In this document: positions 14,348 to 44,806 of the stretch, in pieces
Position numbering within the stretch: the first letter of the stretch is position 1
Layout of the letters: each line of letters opens with the position of its first letter
Source: Firmicutes bacterium HGW-Firmicutes-14
Lineage (GTDB): Bacteria > Bacillota > Thermincolia > Thermincolales > UBA2595
Assembly: GCA_002840275.1 (NCBI GenBank)
Contig: PHAB01000001.1
Location: 124,001-188,000 of the forward strand
Direction: 5' to 3'
Length of the DNA: 64,000 bases
The notes under the pieces: generated by a model
Told to the model about the DNA's origin: nothing
Databases searched by the model: none
The model's input: only the letters and a program-made list of their open reading frames with translations
Translations under genes and position numbers: made by a program

Positions 14348-14450
14348 ATTATGCTCCAAAATTATGCAGCCTGGCAATCATGACCAGTTAGTACCGGTTT
14401 TAGACCCATGGCTTTGTGTCCTTACCTTTCGATAAGTTTACCCTATGTAT
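14348..14450 (-). promoter_or_regulatory. cyclic di-GMP-I (GEMM-I) riboswitch
   Basis: Read on the minus strand, the leader contains AGGGTAAAC, a GAAA-capped stem (CTTATCGAAAGGTAAG), GGACACAAAGCCATGGGTCT, a second arm, and TGATTGCCAGGCTGC. These are the conserved blocks of the GEMM-I aptamer: GAAA tetraloop, CAAAGCC-type junction with tetraloop receptor, and GCC-GGGCTGC 3' strand. It precedes the lipoprotein gene by about 120 nt and is followed by a terminator. Whether it senses c-di-GMP or 3',3'-cGAMP cannot be settled by eye. Confidence 0.85.
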
Positions 14451-14520
14451 AAAATTGTTATTTTATTTTAATCTATAGTTCTACAAATTACGCCAATTTC
14501 CTGCAATTATTTTTAAAAAA

Positions 14521-33764: not shown

Positions 33765-35381
33765 CTACTTGTTGGCCCTGCGGGCTTCAACAAATTCTTT
33801 CCCGATCATGTATGGGCTCTTGAAGGTCACGTCAGTTGCACAGTCATCATAAATACTGTAAAGTTCATCGATGGAAATCTGTAAAAATGCTTCGATACAT
33901 TCGGGACAGAACTGGGTTCCAATGCATTCCTTTAACCCATTTATAGCCACATCAACAGAAAGGGCATCCCTGTACGGCCGGCTGCTTGTCATGGCATCAA
34001 AAGCATCCGCCACGGAAAATATCCTGGCCCCCAGGGGAATCCCTTCACCGGCAAGACCGTCGGGGTAACCGTTACCATTGAACCACTCATGATGATGAAG
34101 CACAATAGGTACAGCCGGTTTTAGGAATTCAATCCTGGAAACCATATCAGCACCCAGCTGTGGATGGGTTCTCATAACAACCCATTCCTCATCTGTCAGT
34201 TTACCCGGTTTAAAGAGGATAGAATCGGGAATTCCTATCTTCCCAATATCATGAAGCAGTGAACCAAGGCGGATGTTTTCCAGTTCTGCGCCTCCCAGGC
34301 CCATATTAACAGCTATGGCTGCAGCATACCTGACTACCCTGAGGGAGTGGCCCTTTGTCCCCGCATCCCGCCTGTCCAGAAGGACAGTCAAAGCATTTAA
34401 CGTTGCGGAGAAAGTGTCTTCCAGCTGCATCAGGGCAAAACCCAGTTTGTTGTTAATTGTTTCATAGATCAGAGCGTTTTCCACAGCAGGTCCAATTCTG
34501 TCCGCAATCTCCATGAGCAGTTCTATATCCCTCTGCTTATATGCCGCGGGAACCCGGCTGCCCATATTTAAAGTCCCGATTACCGCTCCTTTACTTATTA
34601 ACGGCAGACGGAGAGCGCACCTGATACCCTGATCCAGCAGAAACCGGTCCTCGGAAAACATCTTCCCGGCAGCCAGGTCATCTTCAATTATTGGCTTACC
34701 GGTGCTTATCACCCATGCCGGGGCAGTTCCTGCTATTCCAATGGTTCTTGTTTCAAGCGGGTTATCGGCGTCTTCAGCATATACAACCAGCTTTTCCGCA
34801 TTAAAAGGGTCCGGAATACTGATGGTCAGTTTATCAAAGTTTACAATCTTTCTCAGCTTATACGCAAATTGAGGATAATAAATCTGCATATCCAACCCGG
34901 AAGCAAAGGTCAGGACTATATCGTCAATGACCTCTTTTCCCTCTGCCAGGCTTATATTCTTCAGAGCGGCGGAAGTGAGGGTCATCATAATGGAAACCAT
35001 GTCTGTCCTTCCGTGGAATCCCACCGGCAGTTCGTACAATACCAAACCGAAAGTTTCTTCGCCACACATAATGGGTATAACACACAGTTCATTTCCCCTC
35101 AGCACAGTCGGTTCACATATGCCGTCTTTGCAGTTAAAAACAGAAATCATAGTCTGGCTTTCCTTAAGGATTTCCGGTGAATCAAGGTTTATTGTCTCCC
35201 CGATTTGCGCTTTTAAGACAAAATTCCCTTCTTCAAACAGGTAAGCACTAACTCTTTTACAGCCTATAGTAAAGTGAAACACCTGAACCAGATCAGCGAG
35301 GACAATTTCTTTCCCCCATTCCCCGTGCAGAAATCGGGAAAAATCCTTTAAGGCTTTAAGGTTAAGGTAATTGTCAGGCAC
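33765..35381 (-). CDS. GAF-HD-GYP domain protein, predicted c-di-GMP phosphodiesterase
   Basis: A 538-residue signalling protein. The first 330 residues look like one or two GAF sensory modules (second with GIAGTAPAWVISTGKPIIED and GTLNMGS). The C-terminal domain is HD-GYP: GHSLRVVRYA, LLHDIGKIGIPDSIL (the HD pair), HHHEWFNGNGYPDGLAGEGI (the GYP motif) and VADAFDAMTSSRPYR. The family hydrolyses c-di-GMP. No transmembrane segment. GTG start with GGAGGG 6 nt upstream. The leader carries a c-di-GMP-I riboswitch and terminator, so the enzyme probably answers to its own substrate. Confidence 0.92.
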   Translation of the reverse strand: MPDNYLNLKALKDFSRFLHGEWGKEIVLADLVQVFHFTIGCKRVSAYLFEEGNFVLKAQIGETINLDSPEILKESQTMISVFNCKDGICEPTVLRGNELCVIPIMCGEETFGLVLYELPVGFHGRTDMVSIMMTLTSAALKNISLAEGKEVIDDIVLTFASGLDMQIYYPQFAYKLRKIVNFDKLTISIPDPFNAEKLVVYAEDADNPLETRTIGIAGTAPAWVISTGKPIIEDDLAAGKMFSEDRFLLDQGIRCALRLPLISKGAVIGTLNMGSRVPAAYKQRDIELLMEIADRIGPAVENALIYETINNKLGFALMQLEDTFSATLNALTVLLDRRDAGTKGHSLRVVRYAAAIAVNMGLGGAELENIRLGSLLHDIGKIGIPDSILFKPGKLTDEEWVVMRTHPQLGADMVSRIEFLKPAVPIVLHHHEWFNGNGYPDGLAGEGIPLGARIFSVADAFDAMTSSRPYRDALSVDVAINGLKECIGTQFCPECIEAFLQISIDELYSIYDDCATDVTFKSPYMIGKEFVEARRANK

Positions 35382-35499: not shown

Positions 35500-35603
35500 G
35501 ATGGCCGGCAGCCCGGCAATCATGACAGGTATACCTTCCTCGTTGTAGACCCGTAGCTTTGCGTCTCCGTCTTTCGGCGGGTTTGCCCTTATTGGTAAAT
35601 AAT
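35500..35603 (-). promoter_or_regulatory. cyclic di-GMP-I (GEMM-I) riboswitch
   Basis: The minus strand reads AAGGGCAAACC, a GAAA-capped stem (CCGCCGAAAGACGG), AGACGCAAAGCTACGGGTCT, a second arm with GGTATACC, then CATGATTGCCGGGCTGCC. This matches the GEMM-I consensus blocks closely (GGGCAAACC, GAAA loop, CGCAAAGC, GGTCTA, GCCGGGCTGCC). It stands about 120 nt before the HD-GYP start, with a terminator between. Confidence 0.92.
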
Positions 35604-36092: not shown

Positions 36093-37529
36093 TTACCTTC
36101 GTTTTGCCAGTTCCCGGTATATTTCTTCCGGCAGGATATCCTGTTCTCCCAGCAAAACCATCAGGTGGTATAACAGGTCACCCACCTCGTAAATTACCTC
36201 ATCCCTGTTTCTGTTTTTAGCCCCGATAATCACTTCTGCAGTCTCTTCTCCCACTTTTTTCAGGATTTTGTCCAGCCCTTTCCTGAAAAGATATGTGGTA
36301 TAAGAGTTTTCAGGCATTTCCCTTTTCCGGCTGATAATGATGTCATAAATTTCATTAAGGATTTCTGCCGTAGCAACAGGTTCTTTACCGGCAGATTCAT
36401 TGCCGGCATCTCCTTTATCAACGGCTTGTCCGGCACCTGCCTGGTTCCCCTTCAATATCATATTATGGAAACATGTCCTGTTTCCCGTATGGCAAGCAGC
36501 ACCCTTCTGTACAACCTTTACCAGCAGGCAGTCGGCATCACAGTCGTAACTTATATCCCGGACATCCTGGTAATGCCCCGATGTGGCGCCTTTATGCCAC
36601 AATTCCTGCCTGCTCCTGCTCCAGAACCAGGTCTGACGGGTATCTACTGTCCTCAATAAAGACTCTTCGCTCATATAAGCCATCATAAGTACCTCACCGG
36701 AATCCACATCCTGGATAATGGCCGGTATCAGCCCGTTCTCATCAAATCTGAGATTCCAAATATCAAAGTCCAACCTAACAATCACCCCGTTTTGCCTGAG
36801 GTATTCCTTGGATTCGCGGATAGAATATTCCCCAAAGTGGAATATTGATGCCGCCAGGGCCGCATCAGCCCCGCCTTCCACCAATCCTTCCCGTATATGC
36901 TCCAGGTCGCCGACTCCTCCTGAGGCTATGACAGGTATATTGACCAGATCAGCCACCGCCCTGGTCAGTTCTATATCATAACCGTCTTTGGTCCCATCCC
37001 CATCCATACTGGTGAGGAGAATTTCTCCGGCCCCCAGTTCTTCTGCCTGCTTTATCCAATCCAGGGTATCAATTCCCGTGGGTGTGCGCCCCCCGTGAAT
37101 ATAGACTTCCCACTTCCCGGGTTCGGAGGTCCTCTTGGCATCAACCGCCAGGACGATACACTGGCTGCCGAACCTGGCTGCTCCTTCTGAGATAAGTTTT
37201 GGGTTCTGCACTGCGGCAGTGTTCACCGAAACCTTGTCCGCCCCGGCTGCCAGCATTATCCTAATATCCTCTATTGTCCTGATGCCGCCGCCAACTGTAA
37301 ACGGAATAAAGACCTGCTCAGCAGTCCTCCTGACCACGTCAAGCATTGTGGCCCTCCCGTCGGAAGAAGCGGTTATATCCAGGAACACCAGTTCATCGGC
37401 GCCTTCCCGGTCGTAAAATGCCGCCAGTTCTACCGGGTCACCGGCGTCCCTGAGGTCGACAAAATTCGTCCCCTTGACTACCCTTCCCCCGGTAACATCC
37501 AGGCAGGGTATTATTCTTTTAGCCAGCAT
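36093..37529 (-). CDS. hisF: HisF-HisI-HisE trifunctional fusion
   Basis: One uninterrupted 478-residue frame combining three histidine enzymes. Residues 1-252 are HisF, the cyclase of imidazole glycerol phosphate synthase ([20 protein letters not shown] with Asp11, and Asp130 in VLAVDAKR). Residues 253-360 are HisI, phosphoribosyl-AMP cyclohydrolase ([36 protein letters not shown] metal ligands). A Gly/Ala-rich linker follows, then HisE, phosphoribosyl-ATP pyrophosphatase (about 385-478; [29 protein letters not shown]). HisIE fusions are common; joining HisF in front is unusual. I chose the ATG giving MLAKRIIP. The gene is last in the operon and ends at a terminator. It pairs with the separately encoded HisH. 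Confidence 0.93.
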
Positions 37530-37540
37530 TGTTATCTCCC

Positions 37541-38269
37541 CTATTCCTGACAAATACGCAAAGCATCTTCCAAATTCAGCCGCCCGTCATACAGGGCTTT
37601 TCCGGTAATTACAGAATCTACTCCAAAAGGCTCCAGGTCTTTGACGGCCCTGATATCATCCAGACTGGAAACTCCCCCGGATGCAATTACCCGGAGACCG
37701 GTTTTTACAGCCAGTTCTTTGGTATTTTCCAGGTTTAATCCTTTAAGGGTCCCATCCCGTTTAATGTCCGTATAAATGACCCTTTGGATGCCCAGATCCT
37801 TCATTTCCAGGGCCAGGTCAGTGGATTTCCTGGTAACTGTTGAATCCCATCCATGGATAGCTGCTAACCCGTCCCTGGCATCCAGACCCAGGACAATGCG
37901 TTCCGACCCATACCTTTCACATGCCTCTTTCACCATTGACGGGTTGGAAACAGCAACCGTCCCGAGAATTACCCTGTCAACTCCCAATTTAAGATAAAGG
38001 CCAATGGTATCCATGTCTCTTATGCCCCCACCCAGCTCCACAGGTATTGACACAGCATCCAGTATACTCTTAACAGCCTCCAGGTTTTTCGGCTTCCCGG
38101 CAAAAGCGCCATCCAGGTCCACCAGGTGCAGGAACCCGGCGCCCATTCCTTCCCATTTCCGGGCCATATCGGCAGGATTGTCGGAATAAATGGTTTCATT
38201 TTCGATTTTGCCTTCCACAAGCCTTACACACTTGCCATTTCGTAAATCAATCGCAGGTATTACCAGCAT
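37541..38269 (-). CDS. hisA: ProFAR isomerase (HisA)
   Basis: A 242-residue TIM-barrel enzyme isomerising ProFAR to PRFAR. It starts [20 protein letters not shown] with the catalytic Asp8, contains the second phosphate site ([16 protein letters not shown]) and Asp in LGLDARDG. It overlaps the hisH stop by one base (TAATG) and ends 11 nt before the hisF start, so translation is coupled. Confidence 0.96.
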
Positions 38270-38871
38270 TATTTCAACTCCCCGAAGTTTTTTAATATCC
38301 GGAGTCCCAGAGAACTGCTCTTTTCTGGGTGAAACTGTATGCCAAAAACATTCCCGGAACTGGCTATAGAGGTGAATCTGATACCGTATTCAGTAAGGGT
38401 GGTAATGATATCCGGTTCGGCGGGGTCAACATAGAAAGAATGCACAAAATAGAAGGAAGACTCATCCGGAATATCCTTCAGGATAGGGACTTCCTTTTGG
38501 ACCTCTATCTGGTTCCAGCCCATATGGGGCACCTTAAGCCCAGGAGGGAGAAGCCTTACATGCCCGGGGAAGATGCCCAGTCCCCGGTGAAATCCCCCTT
38601 CTTCACTTGTTTCAAACATAAGCTGAAGACCAAGACATATTCCCAGGAACGGTTTTCCTGACTTCACTGTTTCGTCAATTACTTCCAGCATACCCGCTTC
38701 CGCCAGGTTCTTCACAGCATCTCCAAAAGCCCCTACTCCCGGCAGGACAACTTTATCAGCCATCCTTACCTCTTCCGGGTCTTCTGTCACCCGGGCCTCA
38801 AAACCTACCCGTTCAAAACCTTTTTGGACACTTCGCAGGTTTCCCATCCCATAATTAATTATTGCAATCAT
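38269..38871 (-). CDS. hisH: imidazole glycerol phosphate synthase glutaminase (HisH)
   Basis: A 200-residue class I glutamine amidotransferase supplying ammonia to HisF. The nucleophile elbow is GKPFLGICLGLQLMFE (Cys), and the His-Glu pair is in GIQFHPEKSS. Start MIAIINYGMGNLRSV is canonical. It must partner the HisF part of the fusion encoded two genes downstream. Confidence 0.96.
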   Translation of the reverse strand: MIAIINYGMGNLRSVQKGFERVGFEARVTEDPEEVRMADKVVLPGVGAFGDAVKNLAEAGMLEVIDETVKSGKPFLGICLGLQLMFETSEEGGFHRGLGIFPGHVRLLPPGLKVPHMGWNQIEVQKEVPILKDIPDESSFYFVHSFYVDPAEPDIITTLTEYGIRFTSIASSGNVFGIQFHPEKSSSLGLRILKNFGELK

Positions 38872-38900
38872 GCTCTTTCCTCCGCTTTATATTGCTAGTT

Positions 38901-39494
38901 CTAGAGCTGTCCTTTAGTCGACATTATACCTTCGATACGTTCGTCAATGGAAACCGCCTCTTTTACAGCCCGGCCAAGCCCTTTGAAAATTGCTTCAATA
39001 ACATGGTGGGTATTCCTGCCTTGGAGCAGGCGGACATGTAGGGTGATTTCCCCATTGTTGACCAGCGCTCTCAGGAATTCTTCCACCAGTTCGGTATCAA
39101 AATCCCCTACCTTTTGGGCCGGCATCTGGACATCAAAGGATATATAGGACCTCCCGCTGATATCAACCACAACCATAGCCAGGGCTTCATCCATAGGGGC
39201 AAAAGCAGTCCCATAACGCTTGATTCCTTCCTTATCCCCAAGGGCCTGAGCCATTCCCTGGCCAAGGCAGATCCCGATATCCTCCACTGTATGGTGGTCA
39301 TCAATCCCGGTGTCTCCCTGGGCCTCTATATCCAGGTCGAACATTCCGTGCTTAGCCCAGAGGGCCAGCATATGATCTAAAAACGGGACCCCTGTATCCA
39401 GTTTATAACTTCCCTTGCCATCCAGGTTTAAGGTGATATTGATGTCTGTCTCGGTTGTTGTTCTGTTAATCTTACTCTTTCTGGCCTTTGCCAT
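38901..39494 (-). CDS. hisB: imidazoleglycerol-phosphate dehydratase (HisB)
   Basis: A 197-residue monofunctional HisB removing water from IGP. Conserved manganese-binding motifs are FLDHML and DDHHTVEDIGICLGQ in the first half and RNTHHVIEAIFKGLGRA in the second. No fused histidinol-phosphatase domain, so that activity is elsewhere. GGAGTGA, overlapping the hisC stop, serves as the ribosome site. Confidence 0.96.
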   Translation of the reverse strand: MAKARKSKINRTTTETDINITLNLDGKGSYKLDTGVPFLDHMLALWAKHGMFDLDIEAQGDTGIDDHHTVEDIGICLGQGMAQALGDKEGIKRYGTAFAPMDEALAMVVVDISGRSYISFDVQMPAQKVGDFDTELVEEFLRALVNNGEITLHVRLLQGRNTHHVIEAIFKGLGRAVKEAVSIDERIEGIMSTKGQL

Positions 39495-39500
39495 TACAAA

Positions 39501-40583
39501 TCACTCCATTTCCTTCTGAGGAATTAGAACTTCCTTTATTTTCTCCAGAAACATGTCGTTTTCCTCCCTTGTGCCGACCGTTACCCGCAGGCACTGTTCC
39601 AGACCATGAGTTACCCCCGGCTTCTTTCTGACAAGAATGCCTTTCTCAAGAAGTTGGCTGTGCAGCCAGCCGGCCGGCCCCCTGACCCTGAACAGGATAA
39701 AATTGGCCTGGGATGGGATTACGGTTATGTCATCTATTTTCTCCAATTCGGTCTCCAGTCTTACCCTTTCTGATTTAATTTCTTCAATTTGCGCCCGAAA
39801 CAACGGCCAGTTGTCAAGTACCGCCACTGCAGCCATCTGGGAAAAGGCATTAACATTATAAGGTTGTTTTACCTTTGTAAGTTCAACTACAACATCCCTG
39901 TGGGCCAGCAAATACCCAACCCGCAGGCCTGCCAGGGCAATTTTTGAAAAGGTTCTGAGAATAATCAGGTTCGGACATTTTTTAACAAGCGGCAGGCAGG
40001 TTTGACCGCCAAAGTCAATGTAAGCCTCATCCACCACAACCAGTGATTCAACCTTCCGGGTTATTGATTCAATCTGTTCCGGAGGCACAGCTGTACCTGT
40101 AGGATTATTGGGTGAAGCAATAAATGTGATTCCTGTTTCAGGGTTTCTCATTTCTTTTAAAAGGTTTTCGATATTTAAACTGAAGTCCTGATTCCTAAGA
40201 ACTTCAACCGGCCGGGTTCCTGTAATCTGACCGTGTATCTTATACATGGCAAAGGTGGGTGCAGGTATGACTACACGTTTGCCCGGGCCTCCGAAAGTCT
40301 GAAGGATAAGCTGAATAAGCTCATCAGAACCGTTCCCCAGAATTATGTTTTCTATGCCCATATCTGTCATCTTCGCAATTTCGCCTCTAAGTTTATCCCC
40401 CATTGGGTCAGGGTACCGGGTAAAGATTTCCCCCTTCAGCAGGAAGCAAATCTTATTCAAAACTTCAGGCGGAAATTCGTGGGGGTTTTCATTGGCATCA
40501 AGTTTAATCACATCAGAATAGGGATGGGGCTCATAGGGCACCAGGTCCTTAAGATCGTCTCTCATCAGTTTATTTGCGTCCAT
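39501..40583 (-). CDS. hisC: histidinol-phosphate aminotransferase (HisC)
   Basis: A 360-residue fold-type I PLP enzyme. It shows LDANENPHEFPPEV near the start, ILGNGSDELIQLILQTF, SPNNPTGTAVP, VVDEAYIDFGGQ and RTFSKIALAGLRVGYL, where the lysine binds PLP. It converts imidazole acetol phosphate to histidinol phosphate. Begins 21 nt after hisD and ends 6 nt before hisB. Confidence 0.95.
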   Translation of the reverse strand: MDANKLMRDDLKDLVPYEPHPYSDVIKLDANENPHEFPPEVLNKICFLLKGEIFTRYPDPMGDKLRGEIAKMTDMGIENIILGNGSDELIQLILQTFGGPGKRVVIPAPTFAMYKIHGQITGTRPVEVLRNQDFSLNIENLLKEMRNPETGITFIASPNNPTGTAVPPEQIESITRKVESLVVVDEAYIDFGGQTCLPLVKKCPNLIILRTFSKIALAGLRVGYLLAHRDVVVELTKVKQPYNVNAFSQMAAVAVLDNWPLFRAQIEEIKSERVRLETELEKIDDITVIPSQANFILFRVRGPAGWLHSQLLEKGILVRKKPGVTHGLEQCLRVTVGTREENDMFLEKIKEVLIPQKEME

Positions 40584-40604
40584 ATCCTTATCCTCACTTT
40601 GATC

Positions 40605-41888
40605 CTATTTATTCAGCCGGACCCTGACAGCATTAGCGTGGGCATCCAGTCCCTCGGTTTCAGCCAGTTTTATGATATCCTGTCCCTCATCCCCGAGTCT
40701 TTCGGGAGAATAAGCAATAATACTGGATTTTTTCATAAATGTGTCCACATTCAGTGGTGAATAAAACCGGGCCGTCCCTCCTGTGGGTAATATATGGTTG
40801 GGTCCTGCCATATAATCTCCGACCGGCTCAGGAGTGAAATGCCCCAGAAAAATGGCTCCGGCATTCTTTATTCTGCCTAATATGCTGAAGGGAGCCTCAA
40901 CCGCCAGCTCAAGGTGTTCCGGTGCATAGCGGTTGGCCAGTTCTATGGCTTCATCCATGTCCCTCGTTACAATAATAGCACTGTAGTCCCTGAGGGATGC
41001 GGTCATAATCTCTTTTCGCGTGAGATATCCCACCTGCCGGGTGATTTCTTTTTGCACTTCTTCCGCCAGTTTCCCGGAAGGTGTTACCAGGATGGCTGAA
41101 GCCAGGATATCGTGTTCGGCCTGGGACAACAAATCTGCGGCCACATAGACGGGATTTGCCGATTCGTCGGCGACAACCAGTATTTCACTGGGTCCTGCCA
41201 GCATATCAATATTTACTATCCCGTAGACCATCTTTTTGGCCAGGGTCACATAGATATTGCCGGGACCGGTAATCAGATCCACCCGCCTGACTGTCTTTGT
41301 TCCATAAGCCAGGGCAGCAACAGCCTGGGCCCCTCCCAGTTTGTAGATTTCCGTTATACCGGCTTCAGCTGCAGCCACCAGGGTGGAAGCCTGAAGCTTA
41401 CCGTCGGAGCACGGAGGTGCTACCATTACTATCTCTTTTACCCCAGCCACCTTTGCGGGCCCGGCATTCATTAAAACTGAAGATGGGTAATTGGCTGTCC
41501 CTCCCGGCACATAAATACCGGCGCGTTCAACAGGCCTTAAGAGCTGCCCCAGCACAGTACCGTCTTCACCGGTTTCAAACCACGAATTCTGCAGTTGTTT
41601 GCTGTGAAATGCAGCGATATTATCCCTGGCTTTCTGAACAGCCCTGATAAAATCACTGTCCACTTCCCTGTATGCGGCTTCTATCTCGTCACCGGAAACC
41701 GCCAGGGTTTCCGGCGTCAATTCAGCTTTGTCGAACCTGGCCGTATATTCCAGCAGAGCCTCATCCCCGTTTTCTTTTACTTTCCGGAGTATCTCACTGA
41801 CCCGTTCCTCATAGAGCACCTGGTCCGAATATTGCTTATTAATAATTTTGTCAACTGAACTGTCATTGGACTGCAGCAGCCTAATCAT
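40605..41888 (-). CDS. hisD: histidinol dehydrogenase (HisD)
   Basis: A 427-residue zinc- and NAD-dependent enzyme making the last two oxidations to histidine. Key segments are ERAGIYVPGGTANYPSSVLM, GPGNIYVTLAKKMVYG, DMLAGPSEILVVADE and APEHLELAVE, with DYMAGPNHILPTGGTARF near the end. I chose the ATG at 41888, with GGAGGAGC 8 nt upstream; seven in-frame codons precede it inside hisG. It overlaps the hisG end by 8 nt. Confidence 0.96.
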   Translation of the reverse strand: MIRLLQSNDSSVDKIINKQYSDQVLYEERVSEILRKVKENGDEALLEYTARFDKAELTPETLAVSGDEIEAAYREVDSDFIRAVQKARDNIAAFHSKQLQNSWFETGEDGTVLGQLLRPVERAGIYVPGGTANYPSSVLMNAGPAKVAGVKEIVMVAPPCSDGKLQASTLVAAAEAGITEIYKLGGAQAVAALAYGTKTVRRVDLITGPGNIYVTLAKKMVYGIVNIDMLAGPSEILVVADESANPVYVAADLLSQAEHDILASAILVTPSGKLAEEVQKEITRQVGYLTRKEIMTASLRDYSAIIVTRDMDEAIELANRYAPEHLELAVEAPFSILGRIKNAGAIFLGHFTPEPVGDYMAGPNHILPTGGTARFYSPLNVDTFMKKSSIIAYSPERLGDEGQDIIKLAETEGLDAHANAVRVRLNK

Positions 41889-42543
41889 TCTCAGCTCCTC
41901 CGTTCTCAACGATCTCTTTTATTTTTTTTATCACAGGATTAATCCTTTCACTAAGCATCCGGTGACTTACCCTGTTGGCTATCAACCTGGTGGTGGAATT
42001 GAAAATACGGGCTACCTCAATCAACCTGTTTTCCCTTAGGGTCCTCCCCGTTGAAACAATGTCCACGATAAGGTCGGATAACCCTACCAGGGGAGCAAGT
42101 TCAATGTTGCCGTGCAGTTTGATTATTTCCATTTGTTTGCCCCTGCTCAGGAAAAATTCTTCAGCTACCCTGGGGAACTTGGTGGCAACCCTGACATGAT
42201 TCAGTTGTTCCCAGTCGGTTTCCCTGGCTTTTGATTCGGGCATGGCTACCACAAACCTGCAGAAGCCATACTTGAGGTCAAGGAGTTCGAAGATGTCCTT
42301 TTTCTGTTCAACTATCGTATCTTTGCCCACAAATCCCAGGTCAGCAGCGCCATATTCAACAAAGGTGGGTATATCGGTGGGCCTGCAGACGATATACCTT
42401 ACATTTTGCCTGTTATCGGTAAAAAACAGTTTCCTGGTATCTGATTCCATCTCTGCACAGTTAAGACCGGCTTGTTTCAGGAGAGATATGGTGGGTTTAT
42501 ACAAGGTCCCCTTGGGAACCGCCATAACAAGGTAATCCTTCAT
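41881..42543 (-). CDS. hisG: ATP phosphoribosyltransferase, short form (HisG)
   Basis: A 220-residue short-type HisG, which joins ATP and PRPP in the first step of histidine synthesis. It has AVPKGTLYKPTISLLKQAGL, PTDIPTFVEYGAADLGFVGK and the PRPP loop DLIVDIVSTGRTLRENRL. Lacking the C-terminal regulatory domain, it needs HisZ, encoded upstream at 42954-44126. I chose the ATG at 42543; the GTG three codons earlier lies in the ribosome site AAAGAGGTG. The promoter (42585-42613) and a 16-bp palindrome (42555-42570) sit directly ahead. Confidence 0.96.
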   Translation of the reverse strand: MKDYLVMAVPKGTLYKPTISLLKQAGLNCAEMESDTRKLFFTDNRQNVRYIVCRPTDIPTFVEYGAADLGFVGKDTIVEQKKDIFELLDLKYGFCRFVVAMPESKARETDWEQLNHVRVATKFPRVAEEFFLSRGKQMEIIKLHGNIELAPLVGLSDLIVDIVSTGRTLRENRLIEVARIFNSTTRLIANRVSHRMLSERINPVIKKIKEIVENGGAEND

Positions 42544-42554
42544 TTTCTGCACCT

Positions 42555-42570
42555 CTTTAGTACGTTAAAG
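42555..42570 (-). promoter_or_regulatory. candidate HisR/YerC operator at hisG
   Basis: The palindrome CTTTAG-TACG-TTAAAG (one mismatch between half-sites) lies 14 nt after the hisG -10 box and touches the ribosome site. An equivalent site occurs at hisZ. Binding there would block transcription or translation. Confidence 0.65.
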
Positions 42571-42584
42571 TAATAACATATTAA

Positions 42585-42613
42585 ATTATACTACCCTTGC
42601 CCTATTGTGTCAA
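42585..42613 (-). promoter_or_regulatory. hisG operon promoter, perfect consensus
   Basis: The minus strand reads TTGACA (42613-42608), exactly 17 nt, then TATAAT (42590-42585). This is a full sigma-A consensus, so strong repression is expected. Confidence 0.85.
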
Positions 42614-42705
42614 TTTAAATTTAAAATCTCATTAAAGAAATTTTCCTTTTCTCACGATAAACACAGTAGACTATAATAATTTTACCTTGGGGAAGGTGAG
42701 CCTTG

Positions 42706-42903
42706 TTGTTAAAAAAGATCTGTCCGTACTGCAACAACTCCTCCTTTAGTTCTTCTACACTGGGAGGACCATGGCTTTGTCCCAAATGCATGAAGGACAT
42801 AAGCCACGTGCCGACAGAGGCCCCTGAGCCCAAAGCCCAATTAACCAACGTGAGGGCAAAGCAGTCTTGGCTAAAGTTCTTTCAGAACTTTTTCAAAAAA
42901 TAG
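42706..42903 (+). CDS. small zinc-ribbon protein (65 residues)
   Basis: A short protein starting LLKKICPYCNNSSFSSS, with a second pair in PWLCPKCMKD, giving a CxxC-CxxC zinc ribbon, then a charged tail ending WLKFFQNFFKK. The start is TTG at 42706 (or 42703), behind GGAAGGTGAG at 42691-42700. TATAAT at 42672-42677 may be its -10. It is followed by a clear terminator. It is the only plus-strand gene in the histidine cluster and diverges from hisG. No named family recognised. Confidence 0.65.
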   Translation: MLKKICPYCNNSSFSSSTLGGPWLCPKCMKDISHVPTEAPEPKAQLTNVRAKQSWLKFFQNFFKK

Positions 42904-42916
42904 CTCTGTGCCAAAA

Positions 42917-42947
42917 CCCGTAAACATTAGATTTGCGGGCTTTTTTT
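42917..42947 (+). terminator. intrinsic terminator of the zinc-ribbon gene
   Basis: An 8-bp stem (42917-42924 with 42932-42939, one G-U) and 7-nt loop is followed by CTTTTTTT. On the minus strand it could also help end hisZ transcription. Confidence 0.88.
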
Positions 42948-42953
42948 ATGCAT

Positions 42954-44126
42954 TTAAAATATCACAATGTTTCCTGCCCTGCCCAATATCTCAGTGTCCC
43001 GGTCTTCCCGGGACAACTGGGTTATGACAATTTTACCTTTATCCCTTAGTTCCCGTGCCTTTTTAAAAGCCTGGGCAGCTTTTGACGGTTCATACAGGAT
43101 CAGGTAATCCGGTTCAGGAACCGCACCGATTTCCCCACCCTCTTTTTCAAGGGACAGGAGCAGCCGTTCCATTCCCAGAGCGAACCCGGTTGCAGGACAC
43201 TTAAACCCAAATTGCTCCATCAGATTGTCATATCGGCCCCCTCCCAGAATGGGAAATCCCAGGTATGCCGAATATCCCTCAAAAACAACTCCTGTATAGT
43301 AATCAAGACCCCTCAGCACCCCCAGGTCAATCTCAACATTGGCAGTTATACCGTAAGCTTCCAGGGCATCATATACATCACTAAGTGCCTTCAGGGCTGC
43401 GCCGGTTTTATCATTGCCGGCCAACCGGAGCGCTTCCTCTATTATCCCCCGGTCACCCCGGGTGGTTATAACCTGCATGAATTTTTCCTTCCCTTCCACC
43501 GGGACGTTAAATTCATCCAACAGTTCCTGAAGGCCTACATAATTCTTATTGCTGACCTCAGCCTTTATCCTTCCTTTTTGGGCCTCCGGAAGCCCCATCT
43601 TCTCTATCATTCCATATAAAATATCGACATGACCGATACTCACCTTAAAATTACGCAGACCCGAAGTCTTAAGTATTTCCACAGCAACTGCAATAACTTC
43701 CGCATCAGCAAACGGGCTGCCGTCACCAACCAACTCTATACCCGACTGGTAGAATTCCCTCTGCCTGCCTGCCTGGGGGTCTTCACAACTGAAGCCATTG
43801 GCCATATAAAAAATCCTGCAGGGGAAACGGTCATCTCTCATCCGGGAGCTTATCAGGCGGGCGATGGGAGTTGTCATATCAGGCCTCAGGGTCAAAATTT
43901 GCCCCTGCCGGTCAATAAATTTATATAACTGGGCATCTTCTTCAGCACCCCTGCCTACAGACAAAACATCATAATATTCAAAAGTAGGGGTAATTACTTC
44001 CTGGTATCCCCACACCCTGAAGATTTTTTCAAAGTCATTTTCCAGACTTCTTTTGCGCAAAGCCTCACCCGGAAGCAGATCCCTTACCCCGGCGGGAATC
44101 TTTAATCTCAGCTGGTCCCTTGTCAT
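42954..44126 (-). CDS. hisZ: ATP phosphoribosyltransferase regulatory subunit (HisZ)
   Basis: A 390-residue HisRS-like paralogue without tRNA charging, needed with short HisG for catalysis and histidine feedback. Class II synthetase motifs are visible: IPAGVRDLLPGEALRKRSLE, TPTFEYYDVL, LRPDMTTPIARL and GLDYYTGVVFEGY, followed by LGGGRYDNLMEQFG. There is no anticodon-binding domain of normal HisRS length, and short hisG lies downstream. I chose the ATG at 44126 because the upstream GTG lies before GAGGGGAG. Promoter and palindromic operator precede it. Confidence 0.93.
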   Translation of the reverse strand: MTRDQLRLKIPAGVRDLLPGEALRKRSLENDFEKIFRVWGYQEVITPTFEYYDVLSVGRGAEEDAQLYKFIDRQGQILTLRPDMTTPIARLISSRMRDDRFPCRIFYMANGFSCEDPQAGRQREFYQSGIELVGDGSPFADAEVIAVAVEILKTSGLRNFKVSIGHVDILYGMIEKMGLPEAQKGRIKAEVSNKNYVGLQELLDEFNVPVEGKEKFMQVITTRGDRGIIEEALRLAGNDKTGAALKALSDVYDALEAYGITANVEIDLGVLRGLDYYTGVVFEGYSAYLGFPILGGGRYDNLMEQFGFKCPATGFALGMERLLLSLEKEGGEIGAVPEPDYLILYEPSKAAQAFKKARELRDKGKIVITQLSREDRDTEILGRAGNIVIF

Positions 44127-44145
44127 TGCTCTCCCCTCTTTCACG

Positions 44146-44161
44146 CTTTAACTAATTAAAG
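44146..44161 (-). promoter_or_regulatory. candidate HisR/YerC operator at hisZ
   Basis: A perfect palindrome, CTTTAA-CTAA-TTAAAG, lies 10 nt downstream of the hisZ -10 box and 19 nt before the start codon. It matches the hisG site in half-sites, spacing and position. A TrpR-like YerC gene lies just upstream. Confidence 0.7.
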
Positions 44162-44171
44162 TATCGAAGTT

Positions 44172-44200
44172 ATATTAACACATCACCAGGTTCATGTCAA
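44172..44200 (-). promoter_or_regulatory. hisZ promoter
   Basis: The minus strand reads TTGACA (44200-44195), a 17-nt spacer and TAATAT (44177-44172), directly upstream of the palindromic operator. Confidence 0.8.
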
Positions 44201-44294
44201 CCGGGAGCAGTGTAAAGGAAACAAAAAAACTTGGCCTGCACCGATGCCCGGACGCAAGCACAAGCCTTATTCACATCTGTTTATTTACAACTGT

Positions 44295-44719: not shown

Positions 44720-44806
44720 GAAGCAGCCAACAATGATGTTGGTCTGCTTCAACTCCTTAGCTTTGGATACGAGGGAAGCCCGTTAGGGGCTTTTCTCGTA
44801 TTTTTG
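44720..44806. terminator. two tandem hairpins after purD
   Basis: One hairpin (44720-44731 with 44738-44750, one bulge) and a second (ATACGAG 44767-44773 with CTCGTAT 44795-44801, enclosing AAGCCC/GGGCTT) lie between yerC and purD. The second is followed on the plus strand by TTTTT; the first is followed on the minus strand by GTTATTTATTATT. They probably end the purine operon on the minus strand and may also end a plus-strand transcript. Confidence 0.7.

Follow-up and report, generated by a model that had tools for sequence, protein, structure and literature searches.

Predicted HisR (YerC) operators at hisZ and hisG in the histidine locus of Firmicutes bacterium HGW-Firmicutes-14

HisR, the protein otherwise annotated as YerC, has been described across the Firmicutes with the site consensus cacTTTAnnnnnnTAAAgtg (Ashniev et al. 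2022, PMC9413887). In vitro, the HisR of Ruminococcus gnavus requires histidine to bind its site (PMC9413887). All twenty Peptococcaceae genomes of that study are reported to have hisR immediately before his genes. An autoregulatory site upstream of hisR occurs in nearly half of the published genomes and is not a required feature; the main text of that study makes no mention of Thermincola. A more distant comparison is Escherichia coli TrpR, which has in common with HisR the Pfam family PF01371 and the co-repressor logic. TrpR has a different published operator (TGTAcTnGTnnACnAgTACA), and HisR takes histidine rather than tryptophan as its co-repressor.

We analysed a 64,000-nt stretch of DNA (hereafter, the window) from Firmicutes bacterium HGW-Firmicutes-14 (GCA_002840275.1, PHAB01000001.1, positions 124,001 to 188,000, forward strand). 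The minus strand carries, in order, yerC, hisZ, hisG, hisD, hisC, hisB (assigned by position and sequence only), hisH, hisA, and a fused hisF-hisIE that ends at 36093 (Table 1). In the fused gene, HisF and HisIE form one 486-residue frame (36093-37553, minus strand). Because there are promoters at both hisG and hisZ and terminator-like hairpins between yerC and hisZ and at the end of a small open reading frame (ORF) beyond hisZ, the locus is probably divided into three transcription units: yerC, hisZ, and hisG through hisF. We estimate a probability of roughly 0.95 that it constitutes a HisR (YerC) histidine regulon, in which histidine-loaded HisR represses hisZ and hisGDCBHA(F-IE) at two palindromes. 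With the HisR regulon of the Firmicutes the locus shares the TrpR-family YerC, the TTTA-N6-TAAA palindrome, histidine biosynthesis as the target, and the position of hisR just upstream. It differs from that regulon in having two sites, with hisZ and hisG as separate units. The known histidine repressor regulon is thereby extended to one more lineage.

Table 1. Features of the histidine locus, with positions in the window
Feature	Position	Strand	Evidence or detail
hisR (yerC), TrpR-family repressor, 99 aa	44295..44594	-	TIGR02531, PF01371, solved homologues
Terminator-like hairpin, hisR/hisZ interval	44234..44259	-	9-pair stem then CAAGTTTTTT
hisZ promoter, TTGACA-17-TAATAT, TG ahead of -10	44172..44200	-	promoter scan, 10/12 consensus
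HisR operator (predicted) of hisZ, CTTTAATTAGTTAAAG	44146..44161	-	pattern search and conservation
hisZ (ATP-phosphoribosyltransferase regulatory subunit)	42954..44126	-	TIGR00443, 347 bits
Terminator-like hairpin, between convergent small ORF and hisZ	42917..42939	+	8-pair stem and CTTTTTTT
Small zinc-ribbon ORF, about 65 aa, between hisZ and hisG	42706..42903	+	TTG start 42703 or 42706
hisG promoter, TTGACA-17-TATAAT	42585..42613	-	promoter scan, 12/12 consensus; kept in relatives
HisR operator (predicted) of hisG, CTTTAACGTACTAAAG, abuts Shine-Dalgarno	42555..42570	-	pattern search and conservation
hisG (ATP phosphoribosyltransferase)	41881..42543	-	TIGR00070, 214.5 bits
Remainder of presumed hisG unit: hisD, hisC, hisB, hisH, hisA, fused hisF-hisIE	36093..41897	-	profile scan; hisB by position and sequence only

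The initial annotation had described the protein upstream of hisZ as a 99-residue YerC/YecD member of the TrpR superfamily, and profile searches agree. YerC scores 147.1 bits against TIGR02531 (1.5e-43, cut-off 42.2), the YerC/YecD TrpR-related family, and 111.3 bits against PF01371 (2.3e-32). It is distinct from TrpR proper, for which its TIGR01321 score of 22.7 bits falls below the cut-off of 67.25. The solved TrpR-like proteins 3FRW, 3G1C, and 3KOR match YerC over its length, and its helix-turn-helix core, GASTATISR, recurs unchanged in two of them, the HisR-like 3FRW and 3G1C, the latter being Eubacterium eligens HisR according to the literature. We propose that YerC here be named HisR.

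Both palindromes are exact (CTTTAGTACGTTAAAG at hisG and CTTTAACTAATTAAAG at hisZ), and they match the TTTA-N6-TAAA core and the flanking C/G of the published consensus, with the outer "ca"/"tg" positions matching in part. The distance from the -10 box to the palindrome is 14 nt at hisG and 10 nt at hisZ. Our scan recovered both promoters and both 16-bp palindromes where they had been placed by the initial annotation, including their position 10 to 14 nt past the -10 box. A point absent from that annotation is that hisG most likely starts at the ATG at 42543; given this start, the hisG operator runs directly into the Shine-Dalgarno sequence (CTTTAACGTACTAAAGAGGTGCAGAAAATG). In close relatives, the -35 box, -10 box, operator, and Shine-Dalgarno sequence stand out as conserved blocks, while the flanks diverge. 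Across six aligned leaders, 14 of the 16 positions of the hisZ operator are invariant, and both of the others fall within the central N6; the TTGAC of the hisZ promoter is invariant as well. The hisG operator is kept in four loci by alignment (L033, L034, L035, and L148) and, judging by its leader sequence, in a fifth (L155). Locus L155 comes from a genome of the same family (G006, 63% complete) and has HisR sites at both hisG and hisZ; yerC was not detected there and is probably missing from the assembly.

We compared 35 loci with yerC, hisZ, and hisG, scoring a site as present at one mismatch or fewer. With a hisZ-hisG gap of 100 nt or more, a site stands directly before hisG in 16 of 16 loci, versus 3 of 18 with a shorter gap (Fisher p = 4e-7; this count leaves out L091, with a computed hisZ-hisG overlap), and hisZ has a site in 12 of the 14 loci where it lies at least 100 nt from yerC, versus 6 of 21 where it is nearer (p = 0.0016), although these p-values, like the one below, overstate independence because the genomes are related. 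The three short-gap loci with a hisG site have gaps of 70 to 89 nt, and in several loci where hisZ directly follows yerC the site stands before yerC instead. In one related genome (L058) hisZ and hisG are contiguous and there is a site at hisZ only. Overall, each transcription unit tends to own an operator.

The sites also co-occur with the protein. The leader of hisG or hisZ carries a site in 20 of 24 YerC-bearing relatives, these being the relatives whose hisG region was read, versus 0 of 10 relatives lacking YerC (p = 8e-6, with matches classed by leader position after being seen). The initial annotation had proposed looking for the palindrome at the his genes of YerC-carrying relatives and had taken its absence there as evidence against the regulon; the palindrome is present in most of these relatives and at every separated hisG, and the absence, which we looked for, did not occur.

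The palindromes could instead be leader RNA hairpins that control translation, a reading to which we give very little credence. It draws on the position of both palindromes in the presumed transcribed leader and on the contact between the hisG palindrome and the Shine-Dalgarno sequence, where the right arm continues into AAAGAGGTG. However, the predicted folding of the two leaders is not clearly better than that of shuffled sequences (z = -1.28 and +0.81), the minimum-energy fold at hisG leaves the palindrome unused, and the hisZ palindrome is clear of its Shine-Dalgarno sequence. The leaders gave no Rfam match, whether to a T-box or to any other element, and the presence of the site tracks the presence of YerC. 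Given folds no better than shuffles and no Rfam element at these places, we rejected the RNA-hairpin reading. Slightly less probable still is that the palindromes are operators of another regulator, with YerC a mere neighbour. Binding of the sites by the YerC of HGW-Firmicutes-14 is a prediction, which leaves this reading some room, but regulon reconstruction across hundreds of genomes, together with a binding assay, attributes the same site to HisR (PMC9413887), and the relatives that lack YerC lack the site.

The exact pattern CTTTARNNNNYTAAAG (CTTTAR-N4-YTAAAG) occurs twice in the 64-kb window, versus 0.02 matches expected from shuffles, and nowhere else in the 3,654,550-bp genome, its two places being at hisZ and hisG. 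Genome-wide this count is close to chance (2 versus 3 for a backwards control pattern); its significance therefore lies in location, both sites standing before a his gene. With two mismatches allowed, the count in the window is at chance (10 versus 10.96 expected), and a looser palindrome with one mismatch is not above its control genome-wide (185 versus 263). The palindrome is thus informative only together with its position. That the two sites are chance palindromes in AT-rich leaders is extremely improbable: loose TTTA-N6-TAAA matches are indeed no more frequent in the genome than those of a control (156 versus 190), but both exact sites of 3.65 Mb fall in his leaders, and the conservation of their position in relatives refutes this reading. 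In a search for further regulon members, five other exact CTTTA-N6-TAAAG places were found in the genome, none with an adjoining his gene and most inside or overlapping predicted ORFs; hisJ has no HisR site.

The two operators can be explained by gene arrangement: hisZ and hisG are kept apart by a small opposite-strand gene. This zinc-ribbon ORF is convergent with hisZ and divergent from hisG, so that hisG needs its own promoter. A simple rule follows: where an inserted gene separates hisG from hisZ, hisG has a HisR operator to itself. In the Thermincola-like loci L033, L034, L142, L146, and L148, an ORF at the same place and on the opposite strand is 52 to 59% identical to that of the window; in L035, which has a 220-nt gap, the small ORF was not detected and both sites are present. 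The encoded protein has a CPYC...CPKC pattern and a conserved ISHVP; it matches no Pfam family above cut-off and has a very weak similarity to Anti-TRAP (E = 0.089). We consider it very improbable that this protein, rather than being a passenger, takes part in the circuit, for example as an anti-HisR or by modulating HisZ-HisG.

The regulon assignment is based on the sites, the promoter-like sequences, the protein family, conservation, and the co-occurrence of site and YerC, and none of our results speaks against it. The initial annotation had cast YerC as the repressor of a compact histidine regulon, a role that the literature (PMC9413887) and our comparative data support, with binding predicted. 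That hypothesis is an independent rediscovery of a system already published as HisR. When histidine is plentiful, a histidine-loaded HisR dimer would occupy each TTTA-N6-TAAA palindrome, with histidine presumably acting as co-repressor for the YerC of this bacterium as well. Assuming the inferred transcription starts, the sites would cover roughly transcribed bases 4 to 24. Because they would overlie the first transcribed bases, HisR binding is expected to block RNA polymerase initiation or promoter escape at hisZ and hisGDCBHA(F-IE). When histidine falls, HisR would release the DNA and both units would be transcribed.

Another difference from the HisR regulon of the Firmicutes is that yerC itself lacks a site here: no site with zero or one mismatch was found upstream of yerC in the window, nor do the Thermincola relatives L033 and L034 have one before yerC. 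Given this lack, and with a terminator-like hairpin standing between yerC and hisZ, yerC autoregulation is not indicated.

Elsewhere in the window, the interval between purD and yerC (44720-44805) contains two adjacent inverted repeats, GAAGCAGCCAACA...TGTTGGTCTGCTTC and ATACGAGGGAAGCCC...GGGGCTTTTCTCGTAT, after which comes a T-rich stretch; the repeats have no Rfam match at the gathering threshold. A c-di-GMP-I riboswitch aptamer is found at 14362-14452 on the minus strand (75.8 bits). On the same strand, a c-di-GMP-I-GGC riboswitch at 35503-35596 scores 60.3 bits (gathering threshold 59); the next long same-strand frames are a gap away, and a gene for a GAF/HD-GYP-like protein lies downstream, at 33765-35381.
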